Origin: Clostridiaceae bacterium
GTDB taxonomy: Bacteria; Bacillota; Clostridia; DSM-8532
Assembly (NCBI GenBank): GCA_012839205.1
Contig: DUNT01000071.1
Span: 1 to 55,218 of the forward strand
Reading direction: 5' to 3'
DNA length: 55,218 nt
Under the pieces are notes generated by a model. It saw nothing but the letters and a program-made list of their open reading frames with translations. It did not search any database and had not been told where the DNA came from. Made by a program: the position numbers and the translations under genes. Positions 34,361 through 40,061 of this stretch are shown in pieces; positions within the stretch are counted from its first letter, which is position 1, and each line of letters begins with the position of its first letter.

Positions 34361-35212
34361 TTAGCATTTATTGTCTTCCACACCCGGAAAATCAAATTTC
34401 TGCGGCGGGAAGAACTGATCCAATGGGAATTCGATGCTGTCAAAGATATCGCAAGGATTCTCATCGGTGGAAGCAATGCACTCCTTGTTGGGGTAGCAGA
34501 AATTAAAGGCGGGAATCAAAAGCTGAACAAGGCGTACAAGCTTTATGATTGAAAAAATACCAAGAGTGACAACAACTCTCCTCTGAGGTCCGAGGATATT
34601 ATTTACCTCGTTTTGTTCATCATCACACCCAAAATGTTTATGATGTCTTTCATGTACTCTCTTTATTCGGGTATTCAGTACCAGAGGCTCAGCTACCTCC
34701 ACTTTAATTATGGGAAGGTTATCCTGTTCTACTAATCCTCCACAACCGTCGTTGCATCCTTCACATACCATAGGCAGAGGCTGGTTCAAATCAACACTCT
34801 TGAAAATCTTGATTTTGCCCTCAGATCCAAAGAGAATCACTGTCTTTGAAAACCATACGAAACCTACCTTGGGACTGGAGTTGACAATATTTCCTGTAAC
34901 GTCCTTATAGCAGAATTCACATACGACACGTATCTTGTAACGTACATTAACAGTAAAAAACCCTCTCTTGAAAGGGACATCTTCAAGATCTGCCAATACT
35001 GCCACAACTTCTGCGTCTTTTGTCTTTACCTTGATTGCATTATTGATGAGATCCTGTACATTGTCTACAAAATCAACAACCGCATCCTCAACACAATCTT
35101 TCTCGCGGCAATTGTCATATACTTTTTCTACATGAACACATACGGCTTCCCGTAGCTTGCATATGTCTTCGCCGCATATAAGTCCTGGAACCACTTGATC
35201 TTTACAGCCCAT
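34361..35212 (-). CDS. Cys-rich clostridial protein of unknown function
   Basis: 283 residues beginning MGCKDQVVPGLICGEDICKL, with about 18 Cys. Cys clusters are CREKDC (about 35), CEFCYKD (about 100), CEGCNDGCGG (about 155) and single Cys near the C-terminus. There is no signal peptide and no clear transmembrane segment. I recall similar MGCK..VV.GLIC proteins in other Clostridia as uncharacterised, possibly spore-related, but I cannot assign a function. The ATG at 35212 is 9 nt after GGAGG; an ATG at 35248 has no ribosome site. It is divergent from the plus-strand pair at 35372. Confidence 0.8.
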   Translation of the reverse strand: MGCKDQVVPGLICGEDICKLREAVCVHVEKVYDNCREKDCVEDAVVDFVDNVQDLINNAIKVKTKDAEVVAVLADLEDVPFKRGFFTVNVRYKIRVVCEFCYKDVTGNIVNSSPKVGFVWFSKTVILFGSEGKIKIFKSVDLNQPLPMVCEGCNDGCGGLVEQDNLPIIKVEVAEPLVLNTRIKRVHERHHKHFGCDDEQNEVNNILGPQRRVVVTLGIFSIIKLVRLVQLLIPAFNFCYPNKECIASTDENPCDIFDSIEFPLDQFFPPQKFDFPGVEDNKC

Positions 35213-35371
35213 TTTATCGGTCCTCCATTTCAGAATAATTGCCTTCACATTGTCATAATATGCCTTTTAGATGAATTGGTTACTGTGAGTAATATTAACT
35301 CCAGGACATAAATATGAATAATAAGGAGACATGTACTTCTAATTCTATTCTTTTTAAAGGAGTTGTGGGAT

Positions 35372-36487
35372 GTGCCCTCAAATGAAAATATACGACATCT
35401 GTTAAAAAACAGTATGGGTATCACCACCTGTATCTGGTATAAGAACGGGCTTTTTATGAGTCTGTTGGATAAAGGGAACAGATGGGGGCCTCCATTTTCA
35501 TTGTCAGACACTTCAACCGGCGATTTTTCGGCTCTGTTGGAAACAAACGATGTCATAAGTACCTGCTATGTGGATTATTCAGGGAGGCTACTATATATTA
35601 ACTCCTGTGAAGAGAAAAAAGAACCGAAGGTTTTACTGGAGAGTCGTATAGAAGGCTATTCTCCGTATAACGTTCGTCTTGCAGAGTCCGAAGGATCGGT
35701 TCATGCTTTTTACATTATATCTCATAATCGAAAGCAATTATTAACATACCAGAAAATTGACGGCCCGGAAAGTATGATGCCCGAGGTTTTAGGTGTCATC
35801 ATCCGGGATGGACAGAGCTATACAGTCAGCACAGATGATGTAAATATTCACCTCTTTTTCCTTACAGATGTTCAGGGTATAAACCTTTTAGTACATAGAA
35901 AACTTTACGGTGGAAAAGCGTCAAAACCCATCACCACACCGTTTCCCTACAGCGCATCACTGAGGTTGCAGTCGGTTATATCGGATGATGGACTGCTTTA
36001 TATTCTTGCCTCCCCGGACGATGGCCAGGATGTTAGTGTCATATACAGATTTGATCCCGTTCTTAATAAATTTTCTAAAGGACTTGAGGTGTATAACAGT
36101 TCTTCCGGACAAGGAAGCGATAGCCTTATTCTGATTAATAATAACCCATATGTAGTACGTTCATTAAAATCCTCCTTGATTCTCTCGAGAATCAGCCGTG
36201 ATATAAAAGGCATTGCTGATGAAGCCAGAATCGATCTGGTTGGCCGTGATATCCTGTTAAAGTGCAGATATCAGTCAAATTACAAAAAGGACAGAGCTTT
36301 TAAGTGCGATCTTACTCCAATGCTATTCGGAAACGGACTTCATTTTCCTTTCAACTTAAAGACACTTATGACACAAAAGAACGAGAATGAAACTATTGAC
36401 AGCAAAGCCTTCAATGAGCGTATTCAGGAACTTGAGGGCCGGATAGAATTTCTTGAAAACACCATACGGGAAATCCTGAGACCATGA
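35372..36487 (+). CDS. beta-rich protein with C-terminal coiled coil, unknown function
   Basis: 371 residues from the GTG at 35372, 9 nt after AAAGGAG; the TTG at 35363 touches the ribosome site. Residues about 1-310 are rich in short alternating strands with repeated aromatic/Gly turns and may form a beta-propeller, which is inference. The last 40 residues (FNERIQELEGRIEFLENTIR) are a clear coiled coil. No signal peptide is seen. It is followed after 90 nt by the degenerate hydrolase gene on the same strand, so they may be co-transcribed. Confidence 0.75.
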   Translation: MPSNENIRHLLKNSMGITTCIWYKNGLFMSLLDKGNRWGPPFSLSDTSTGDFSALLETNDVISTCYVDYSGRLLYINSCEEKKEPKVLLESRIEGYSPYNVRLAESEGSVHAFYIISHNRKQLLTYQKIDGPESMMPEVLGVIIRDGQSYTVSTDDVNIHLFFLTDVQGINLLVHRKLYGGKASKPITTPFPYSASLRLQSVISDDGLLYILASPDDGQDVSVIYRFDPVLNKFSKGLEVYNSSSGQGSDSLILINNNPYVVRSLKSSLILSRISRDIKGIADEARIDLVGRDILLKCRYQSNYKKDRAFKCDLTPMLFGNGLHFPFNLKTLMTQKNENETIDSKAFNERIQELEGRIEFLENTIREILRP

Positions 36488-36577: not shown

Positions 36578-37603
36578 ATGATAGGCTTATTCTATTTTCT
36601 TGGTATAATAATTTTTATTTTCTTATCGATATATTTTTTTATTCTAATTTCTAACATTAGGAGTGTTAAGTGGTTTAACCTGCCTTCCCAGGAGGGAAAG
36701 TTTGCAGCTGCTGGCGGTAAGAAAATATATTACCGGATTAAAGGAAGAAGCGGACCGGTTGTTGTCATTATCAACTCCATAGGCAGCTCACAAGCTGAAT
36801 GGTGGCATATTCAAAATGAGGCAAGCCAAAAATGTCGTGTTATTACTATCGACAGGCCGGGTTATGGGTGGAGTACCTCAGAAAGCGAAAACATATCAGC
36901 ATCCAGCGTAGCTAAAGAACTAAATATGATTCTTAAGTTTGAAAAAATAAGAAAGCCTGTTTATATTGTAGCCAACGGTACCGGAGTACTATATGCAAGA
37001 TATTATTGTGCCAAATACCCTTCCAGGGTGTTGGGTGTTTTATTTACCAACCCGCTTCCTTTGTGTTATTCAGACTGGATGGATGCCATAAACAGCATTG
37101 ACGAATGTCCGAATATGATTGAAACGGCCAAGAAAATGCAGCATAAGGCAGCTAAAGGAATATACCGCCTGGTTTCTCCTTTCAGGGGATATCGACTTGA
37201 CCATCGGTACAAGCGATATATTATTGAGCATTATTCAAAAACAGAACATTATGACACGATGCAAAAAGAATTATCCCAATTGGATAATATTCTAGCTGAG
37301 GTAGAATCTGCCGGCAGTTTCCCCCCCATTCCTCTCAGGGCTTTATATCCCGCAGGGGAATCGTTTATACGTGATTTAATCAGAAAAGGTATCAATGAGT
37401 ATTCAGCCCGTCAGCTTGGCAGAGTTTATCAGGAGCTCTCTAAAGATGTACTGACACTCTCTCCAGAATCATCATCTGTTGAAGTGGAAGGGGCCGGGGA
37501 GCATATCCATCTTGGTAAACCAAACATTGTTATAGAAGAAATAAGAAACATGGTTTCTAAACCAAGAACATCCCGAGCACTCAGAACGCGTAAAAAAACA
37601 TAA
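36578..37603 (+). CDS. membrane-anchored alpha/beta-hydrolase-fold protein lacking the nucleophile serine
   Basis: 341 residues. A strong N-terminal transmembrane helix (about 3-26) anchors an alpha/beta-hydrolase domain with VVVIINSIGSSQAEWW (oxyanion strand), ITIDRPGYGWST and the nucleophile-elbow position IVANGTGVLYARYY. Where active enzymes have G-x-S-x-G this protein has A132-N-G134-T-G136, so the catalytic Ser is Gly. The late His (GEHIHLG, 309-311) remains. It is probably not a classical hydrolase and may bind ligands or proteins. The tail is basic (RTRKKT). Ribosome site AGAGGAG is good. Confidence 0.85.
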   Translation: MIGLFYFLGIIIFIFLSIYFFILISNIRSVKWFNLPSQEGKFAAAGGKKIYYRIKGRSGPVVVIINSIGSSQAEWWHIQNEASQKCRVITIDRPGYGWSTSESENISASSVAKELNMILKFEKIRKPVYIVANGTGVLYARYYCAKYPSRVLGVLFTNPLPLCYSDWMDAINSIDECPNMIETAKKMQHKAAKGIYRLVSPFRGYRLDHRYKRYIIEHYSKTEHYDTMQKELSQLDNILAEVESAGSFPPIPLRALYPAGESFIRDLIRKGINEYSARQLGRVYQELSKDVLTLSPESSSVEVEGAGEHIHLGKPNIVIEEIRNMVSKPRTSRALRTRKKT

Positions 37604-37604
37604 T

Positions 37605-37842
37605 AAAAGGCTGTTCTTTCGAACAGCCCATCCCAAAATGCCGTTCGCCTATTTTGACACCTGGCTCGCACCAGGTGGGTGCCCTATTGTATATTTCATA
37701 TTTCCACCGCCGTTGCAAATGGCTTGCGCCACTTGTCGGAATTAGCTTGTGGCCTATATTACGTATACAAACAATCGGACTCCCGTGTCACATATAGCAG
37801 GTTCAAAATTAAGGCATCACGCACATTTCAGGAATCTTTCCT
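37605..37842 (-). ncRNA. ssrS: 6S RNA candidate
   Basis: Transcript predicted from about 37842 to the terminator at 37609-37628. A 5' hairpin (CAGGAA-AGA-TTCCTG) comes first. Then ATTTTGA plus ACCTG pairs with CAGGT plus TCAAAAT, with one bulge, as the closing stem. About 13 unpaired nt on each side form a central bubble, whose 3' side can form CACC/GGTG. GGG-A-GTCC-G-ATTGT then pairs with ACAAT-A-GGGC-A-CCC, leading into an apical region with GCCAC/GTGGC. Closing stem, bubble and terminal stem are the 6S layout, which mimics an open promoter and sequesters sigma-A RNA polymerase. No ORF fits. Identity is inferred from structure, without a database match. Confidence 0.75.
37609..37628 (-). 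terminator. intrinsic terminator of the 6S RNA candidate
   Basis: On the minus strand GGCTGTTC-GAAA-GAACAGCC is followed by TTTTATTATGTTTTTTT: a perfect 8-bp stem, a GNRA tetraloop and a T-rich tail. On the plus strand it lies just after the hydrolase stop but has no T-run there. Confidence 0.85.
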
Positions 37843-37848
37843 GGTCTT

Positions 37849-37877
37849 ATTATAGCATAGTTTTATTTGTGGCTCAA
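37849..37877 (-). promoter_or_regulatory. strong sigma-A promoter of the 6S RNA candidate
   Basis: On the minus strand TTGAGC (37872-37877), 17 nt, TATAAT (37849-37854). Near-consensus, with the expected start about 7 nt downstream at A 37842. It lies 57 nt from the 3' end of the next gene, which has no other need for a promoter here. Confidence 0.8.
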
Positions 37878-37933: not shown

Positions 37934-38665
37934 TTATTGCATTTCAGTCATATTTCTCCAGTATCGGGCCGGTAAAAATTTCTTTTGCAGTTTTGGATTT
38001 CTTCTGTCGTCTATTGTTATGGCCTTAAAATAATTTTTCCATAATTTTTCGATTGCTTTATCCTCATCATTATCTGTATGGATTTTTATATCCTCATTAA
38101 TAAAGATAACCTGATTCGTGTCATAGCATGCAAAAATACTCCGTTTTGCATCATGAATTATCCAGGGCTGGTCAGAAAACCTGTTTTTAAAGTGCTCTGC
38201 AATAATCATGGTTATATTGTTATCAGGTTCAATCTTCGCATAGTATAAGCCGCTGCCCAGTTTTTTAAACCTGAGAATTCCTAGAAATCTGTGGGCTTCG
38301 AAAGAGACCTTTCGTGCCAGGTCATGAATCATGAGCACATCAGGATTTTGCAGGTATGATAATACTTTTATTCCAATTTTCAGACCGATTTTTATATATT
38401 TATATAAAGCTGTGCCTATATCACAATACTGGCTGAGCCATGCTTTATACATAGTTTCTATAGCATTATGAGATATTTTATTTACTACGGCATTATAAAC
38501 CCTGCGAAATTTTTCATCATTTTTTGAAATTTCTCTTACAACCGAATCAAGGGATATTTGGTAGAAATCCCGTGATACAATACTTTCAGGAGTTTCCTTA
38601 TTTTCATATGCTTCAAATACCGCTGTTAAAATTCCCTCAAATGAACCATCCGTAACATATATCAT
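37934..38665 (-). CDS. TIGR03915-family DNA-metabolism protein (DUF4130)
   Basis: 243 residues with the start IYVTDGSFEGILTAVFEAYE, the central HDLARKVSFEAHRFLGILRF and the tail KKFLPARYWRNMTEMQ that mark this family. Members are almost always encoded beside a radical SAM/helix-hairpin-helix partner, as here. They are described as a putative DNA repair or modification pair related to uracil-DNA-glycosylase-like proteins. The reaction is not established. The start is the ATG at 38665, and the partner gene ends 10 nt upstream. Confidence 0.9.
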   Translation of the reverse strand: MIYVTDGSFEGILTAVFEAYENKETPESIVSRDFYQISLDSVVREISKNDEKFRRVYNAVVNKISHNAIETMYKAWLSQYCDIGTALYKYIKIGLKIGIKVLSYLQNPDVLMIHDLARKVSFEAHRFLGILRFKKLGSGLYYAKIEPDNNITMIIAEHFKNRFSDQPWIIHDAKRSIFACYDTNQVIFINEDIKIHTDNDEDKAIEKLWKNYFKAITIDDRRNPKLQKKFLPARYWRNMTEMQ

Positions 38666-38675
38666 TTATAACCAC

Positions 38676-39917
38676 CTAATCAAACATAGATATCTGCCCG
38701 TAAATAGCTTTTGAATATGTTTTTTCCGACAATATGGAATACAGATTCCCTGAATCAATATCCACATCGCCGTAATATACCCCTTTGCAGGTAATAAAGT
38801 ATTTGGCACGCTTAAGTACAACACGCATTCTTCTTAAATCTTCAAATGACAATGGAGCTACTTTTCTTGCTCTGACAATACGTTGAGCCATTTTGTAACC
38901 TATGCCCGGGACTCTGAGAAGAGTTTCAACAGGGGCACGGTTAATTTCAACCGGAAATTTATCAAGATTTCTCAGTGCCCAATCACATTTTGGGTCAACT
39001 TTAGTATCAAAGTTTGAATGCTTTTCGTCCAGCAGCTCCTCAGCATTAAAACCGTAATACCTTAACAACCAGTCTGCCTGATAAATTCTGTGTTCCCTTA
39101 ACAGCGGCGGGTTGGTGTTAAGGGCGGGGAGATTGGTGTCACTATTCACAGGCACATATGCCGAATAGTACACTCTTTTAAGTCTATAACGATTATATAA
39201 CTCCTGAGTTAACCTAATTATAGTTAAGTCACTGTCGGGGCTGGCACCTACAATAAGCTGAGTTGTCTGCCCCGCAGGTACAAACATTTGCTTTTTTCGA
39301 TATATTGTAAGCTCATTGGCTCCATGAATCTGTTCACTAACAAATGACATAGGCTTTATTATGGTTTGGTGATCCTTTTGCGGAGCCAGAAGTTTAAGGC
39401 TGTGTACAGAGGGAAGTTCAATGTTGATACTCATTCTGTCTGCCAGAAGTCCAGCCTGATGAATAAGGCTCAAATCAGCTCCCGGTATAGATTTGACATG
39501 GATATAACCATTGAATTTATAGTCATATCTTAATTTTCTTAAAGCCGAAATAATCAGTTCCATGGTATAGTCGGGACTTTTTAATACTGCTGAACTTAAA
39601 AAAAGCCCCTCTATATAATTCCGCCTGTAAAACTCGATGGTCAGTTGGCAAAGCTCATCCGGTGTAAGACTCGCCCTTCTGATATCGTTTGAGATGCGAT
39701 TCACACAGTATTTGCAGTCGTAAATACAGTAATTGGTGAAAAGCACCTTCAAAAGTGAGATGCAGCGTCCGTCATCCGACCAGCTATGACATATTCCCGC
39801 CACTGCAGCATTCCCTACCTGCCCTTTTTTATTGCTGCGACTGCTGCCGCTGGATGAACATGAAACATCGTATTTTGCGGAATCGGCCAGAATCTGAAGT
39901 TTTTCAAGCAGATGCAT
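38676..39917 (-). CDS. putative DNA modification/repair radical SAM protein (TIGR03916)
   Basis: 413 residues. The 4Fe-4S/SAM motif is FTNYCIYDCKYCVNR (C-x3-C-x2-C), with later SINIELPS typical of the family. The C-terminal helix-hairpin-helix NRAPVETLLRVPGIGYKMAQ suggests DNA binding. The ATG at 39917 is 5 nt after GGAGG; an in-frame codon at 39929 overlaps that site. It forms a coupled pair with the TIGR03915 gene 10 nt downstream. Substrate unknown. Confidence 0.92.
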   Translation of the reverse strand: MHLLEKLQILADSAKYDVSCSSSGSSRSNKKGQVGNAAVAGICHSWSDDGRCISLLKVLFTNYCIYDCKYCVNRISNDIRRASLTPDELCQLTIEFYRRNYIEGLFLSSAVLKSPDYTMELIISALRKLRYDYKFNGYIHVKSIPGADLSLIHQAGLLADRMSINIELPSVHSLKLLAPQKDHQTIIKPMSFVSEQIHGANELTIYRKKQMFVPAGQTTQLIVGASPDSDLTIIRLTQELYNRYRLKRVYYSAYVPVNSDTNLPALNTNPPLLREHRIYQADWLLRYYGFNAEELLDEKHSNFDTKVDPKCDWALRNLDKFPVEINRAPVETLLRVPGIGYKMAQRIVRARKVAPLSFEDLRRMRVVLKRAKYFITCKGVYYGDVDIDSGNLYSILSEKTYSKAIYGQISMFD

Positions 39918-40061
39918 AAAGCCCTCCAAACATATGTTCTTTTTTTATTATATCATGAATAAAATTAAAAGAAAATATGTTCGGCGAATGTAGGAATATT
40001 ATTGCTGCAGCCATGCTGCCGGATAAGTCAAACCGTGAAACAGAAAACTCTCTTATTAACA

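Follow-up and report, generated by a model that had tools for sequence, protein, structure and literature searches.

6S RNA binds the housekeeping RNA polymerase holoenzyme as a mimic of an open promoter, and the synthesis of pRNA releases it (PMC8876501). In E. coli, a hairpin in the 3' central bubble makes use of the 3' strand of helix P2, and forms when pRNA synthesis opens P2 (PMC8876501). In B. subtilis 6S-1 RNA the synthesis of pRNA is reported to give rise to no extended hairpin, and the RNA is described as having a collapse helix (CBCH) (PMC8876501); the pRNA of B. subtilis is 5'-GUUCGGUCAAAACU, initiated with G (PMC12005410). Among the clostridia, strong expression of 6S RNA has been shown on Northern blots of Clostridium acetobutylicum (PMC3879012), and the likeness of the present locus to it is that of one clostridial 6S RNA to another, at the level of description.

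The locus considered here lies within a contig of 55,218 nucleotides (the window) from an uncultured relative of Thermoclostridium. Taken as a whole, the evidence is best explained by a single-copy 6S RNA gene (ssrS) on the minus strand, a reading to which we assign a probability of about 97%. The copy is typical: the locus is new, but it is a regular 6S RNA gene of the known family. Its description places a global regulator of RNA polymerase in an uncultured clostridial genome, with ends and structure corrected, and the aligned set of relatives yields a concrete pRNA prediction and a candidate release hairpin for the Clostridia. The understanding of 6S RNA is in principle unchanged.

Identity and copy number

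An earlier note, made from the sequence of the window, had pointed to an ORF-free gap of 330 nt and proposed that it probably encodes 6S RNA. The gap is confirmed between an alpha/beta hydrolase gene (36578-37603, plus strand) and a gene for a DUF4130 protein (37934-38665, minus strand), and no other plausible protein gene was found within it. A minus-strand ORF at 37429-37671, which overlaps the 3' end of the 6S RNA, is not accepted as a gene because most of it runs antisense to the hydrolase gene, which is conserved.

The proposed identity is borne out by the Rfam comparison that the note had suggested. RF00013 is the single Rfam 15 match in the whole window, and cmscan aligns the model over its full length (1-187 of 187) with a score of 70 bits, the gathering score being 46.4 (E = 8e-12 for the window). 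The 273 nt of the minus strand fold with a predicted energy of -86.2 kcal/mol, compared with a mean of -68.1 kcal/mol for shuffled sequences (z = -3.9), none of 200 shuffles being as good. A 6S match is present in 55 of 61 genomes, comprising that of the host and 60 relatives, and exceeds the cut-off in 52. A second copy was sought in the host's own genome (2.3 Mb, 99.7% complete), none being found.

Two remoter relatives of the same class each carry two 6S matches, all of them over the Rfam cut-off (L046 on G052:C60 and L002 on G052:C24; L048 and L049 in G042).

Table 1. Features of the 6S RNA locus, in window coordinates and in the order of transcription
Feature	Position	Strand	Remarks
Sigma-A promoter	37849..37877	-	TTGAGC (37877-37872), 17-nt spacer, TG-N-TATAAT (37854-37849)
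6S RNA (ssrS), whole RF00013 model	37626..37837	-	cmscan
P1, outer closing stem, 5' strand	37819..37832	-	pairs with 37644-37632
P2, inner closing stem, 5' strand AUUUUGAACCUG	37798..37809	-	pairs with 37663-37651
Predicted pRNA 14-mer, 5'-GCAGGUUCAAAAUU	37797..37810	+	by analogy
5' central bubble	37785..37797	-	C at 37797 = predicted pRNA start template
Apical arm, 5' side	37764..37784	-	P3a GGG-A-GUCC (37784-37777), P3b UUGUAUA (37770-37764)
Distal apical arm	37698..37759	-	P4 (AUAU/AUAU, CCAC/GUGG) and end hairpin
GCAA-capped end hairpin, CAAGUGGC-GCAA-GCCAUUUG	37735-37716	-	
Apical arm, 3' side	37677..37693	-	P3b UAUACAA (37693-37687), P3a GGGC-A-CCC (37684-37677)
3' central bubble	37664..37676	-	between P3 and P2
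Alternative 3' central-bubble hairpin, ACCUGGU-GCGA-GCCAGGU	37659..37676	-	7 bp; shares CAGGU with P2
P2, 3' strand CAGGU-G-UCAAAAU	37651..37663	-	covariation
P1, 3' strand	37632..37644	-	covariation
Intrinsic terminator, GGGCTGTTC-GAAA-GAACAGCCT then TTTATTAT	37608..37629	-	

Secondary structure and covariation

The Rfam-derived structure was mapped onto the window's row in an alignment of 31 sequences from the genus, family and order. Standard pairs occupy 94.4% of the cells, two-sided changes are seen at 25 of 58 pairs and the covariation score is 0.300. In shuffle controls 85.0% of the cells were paired and the score was 0.136, with none of 500 shuffles as high. When the pairing partners were slid, 35-46% of the cells were paired and the score was at most 0.07; because one of the aligned sequences served for drawing the structure, the comparison of paired cells favours the unslid version, while the count of two-sided changes is not explained in this way. 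The covariation thus strongly supports a rod with a closing stem, a large asymmetric central bubble and an apical arm, and is of the kind that the note had asked for in related genomes. No helix is broken in the window's own sequence.

The closing stem is made up of two helices. The note had recognized the inner one, P2, correctly (ATTTTGA-ACCTG with CAGGT-G-TCAAAAT); it is paired in 94.6% of the cells, with both-side changes at three pairs, among them the top pair, which alternates between GC (19 sequences) and AU (11). It had missed the outer helix, P1, formed by CCUGAAAUGU-G-CGU with ACGGCAUUUUGGG, where 96.3% of the cells are paired and three pairs likewise show changes on both sides. The terminal stem that it had drawn is right in its lower part, P3a (GGG-A-GTCC with GGGC-A-CCC, 96.2% of cells paired), and has to be shifted above it. 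The proposed ATTGT/ACAAT register is complementary here, yet it is paired in 55% of the cells across the 31 genomes, against about 98% for UUGUAUA/UAUACAA; this latter helix, P3b, is paired in 97.7% of the cells and has both-side changes at six of its seven pairs. Further out, 93.5-99.2% of the P4 cells and 80.3% of those of the end hairpin are paired, with many compensatory changes.

In its likeness to RF00013 the RNA thus extends over the whole model, sharing the closing stem, the asymmetric central bubble, the apical arm and a CCCACC motif at the border of the 3' bubble. It differs in the length of the apical arm, the terminal part of which has 41 residues compared with 8 in the consensus, and this longer arm is common to most of the relatives.

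An extra 5' hairpin had also been proposed (CAGGAA-AGA-TTCCTG). It exists in this sequence, but not as a conserved part of 6S RNA: of the genomes examined, only that of the host (G000) and that of one relative (G009) have its 6-bp stem. Its upstream half lies near the transcription start, while the 3' arm coincides with the 5' strand of P1 and is constrained by that helix. It is read as a product of chance, or at most as a transient fold during transcription.

Promoter and terminator

The minus-strand promoter reported earlier, TTGAGC-17-TATAAT, is present, matching the consensus at 10 of 12 positions, and the TG before its -10 element makes this an extended -10. Two promoter-like hits were found where shuffled sequences lead one to expect 2.1; a lone hit is therefore not significant in itself, and it is the conservation in relatives that matters. 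The comparison covered the 30 other aligned genomes, of which 29 were readable, G010 being masked upstream. TTGAGN-17-TATAAT with the TG is found in 26 of these 29. Two relatives differ by one base (TATACT in G002, TTGTGA in G020), and the promoter of G032 is doubtful, its best match lying too far upstream.

The hairpin with a GNRA tetraloop that had been taken for a terminator is found as described, with a GAAA loop. Each of the 14 genomes of the genus has a terminator-like hairpin at this position, and so do those of the Thermoclostridium group (G019, G024, G028, G030 and G031); in most of the family's other genera a simple search found none within 60 nt. The sequence features, with promoter and terminator conserved in the genus, are those of an independent transcription unit with a housekeeping promoter and a length of about 180-240 nt.

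Alternative explanations

The locus might hold some other structured RNA, or a leader or attenuator acting in cis, that merely resembles 6S RNA, and its intergenic position, its own promoter and the terminator hairpin at its end would suit this. Against it stands the absence of a minus-strand gene just downstream, the next gene being convergent and on the plus strand. The Rfam search, too, gives no family other than 6S at the locus up to E = 1, and every helix of the 6S structure covaries. Explanations of this kind are accordingly very improbable. Less probable still is a non-functional 6S-like fold, arisen by chance or left by decay. The score of 70 bits does fall below that of several relatives, which reach up to 100, but the gene is the sole copy in its genome, its promoter and terminator are intact and each of its helices is whole. 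A 6S RNA gene remains by far the preferred reading.

The predicted pRNA template and a proposed mechanism

The C at 37797 (C41) is invariant in all 31 sequences. From the position in B. subtilis 6S-1 it is predicted to be the template for the start of pRNA, which would have the sequence of the plus strand because it is copied from the 6S RNA. The predicted pRNA resembles that of B. subtilis 6S-1 in its G start and in having UCAAAA in the same place (PMC12005410), and in several other genera the prediction is GUAGGUUCAAAAU(U/A).

By analogy with the 6S family, the following course of events may be proposed. Transcription from the sigma-A promoter would give an RNA of about 235 nt, ending at the intrinsic terminator, which would fold into the 6S rod with its closing stem (P1 and P2), central bubble and apical arm. 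Imitating a melted promoter, it would bind the holoenzyme of RNA polymerase with sigma-A and block it, stationary phase being the most likely time for this. During outgrowth, the polymerase would copy the 5' bubble and the 5' strand of P2, starting from C37797, into the predicted pRNA. This would open P2 and free CAGGU, whereupon the hairpin ACCUGGU/GCCAGGU could close and the 6S RNA be released. The sequence itself shows membership of the family, the structure, the promoter and terminator, and the conservation of the template C and of the competing hairpin. Polymerase binding, pRNA synthesis and the growth-phase role we infer from the family as a whole; least certain of all is the part that the hairpin would play in release.

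A hairpin in the 3' central bubble

The 3' arm of this 7-bp hairpin overlaps the P2 3' strand CAGGU, and the hairpin and the top of P2 are therefore mutually exclusive. Its pairs are formed in 99.1% of the cells (31 sequences), one of them occurring as GC, GU or AU. Two-sided covariation is small, amounting to five cells, and 27 of 500 shuffles were as high. In the clade with an A-U pair at the top of P2 the shared strand reads UAGGU, and its partner in the hairpin is G, as a wobble, or A. When the 14-nt pRNA site was blocked, the predicted probability of the hairpin rose from 0.47 to 0.79 in this RNA, and the mean over the 31 genomes from 0.68 to 0.88, which would suit a hairpin that closes when pRNA opens P2, in the manner of E. 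coli.

A conserved hairpin that competes with P2 for one strand is plausible as a release switch, and is the most specific feature of this 6S RNA. In many relatives, however, the hairpin is predicted to be formed already in the free RNA (median probability 0.77); it may therefore not act as a switch but be constantly present, as has been reported for B. subtilis 6S-1. The 3' central bubble of the B. subtilis RNA also contains a hairpin (PMC8876501), whereas the one described here is 7 bp long and has CAGGU in common with P2. In using the 3' strand of P2, the helix downstream, it resembles the hairpin of E. coli 6S RNA, which differs in having 9 bp and an open 3' bubble in the free state; here the hairpin is predicted to be partly formed. 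Where CAGGU becomes UAGGU, its partner in P2 changes with it (G to A), and so, in part, does its partner in the hairpin (G retained as a wobble, or A). Since this clostridial clade in this way keeps the strand complementary to both, a Gram-positive lineage with a release hairpin of the E. coli kind, in contrast to the collapse helix described for B. subtilis 6S-1, may be suggested tentatively, as the less probable outcome.

Gene neighbourhood

Of the 14 genomes of the genus, 12 have the DUF4130 gene upstream of the 6S RNA and on its strand, the two where it was not seen being G009 and G012; all five genomes of the Thermoclostridium group have it there as well. The hydrolase gene follows downstream on the opposite strand in most; it was not seen in G010 and G013, and in G003 the contig ends. 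Neither was found beside 6S RNA in the family's other genera. Conservation of the 6S RNA thus reaches further than that of the genes around it, which is what one expects if it is an independent gene.

Some features of the surrounding genes may be recorded. At 37934-39929 on the minus strand, the gene for the DUF4130 protein (PF13566) and that for a radical SAM/HHH protein (PF04055, slightly below the cut-off) are adjacent and co-oriented, upstream of the 6S RNA, and the pair is conserved in most of the genus and in the Thermoclostridium group. Two proteins, encoded at 34361-35248 (minus strand) and 35363-36487 (plus strand), belong to no Pfam family. The latter, of 374 aa, is conserved near the 6S RNA in the genus and in the Thermoclostridium group with 49-85% identity, and its end reads like a coiled coil.
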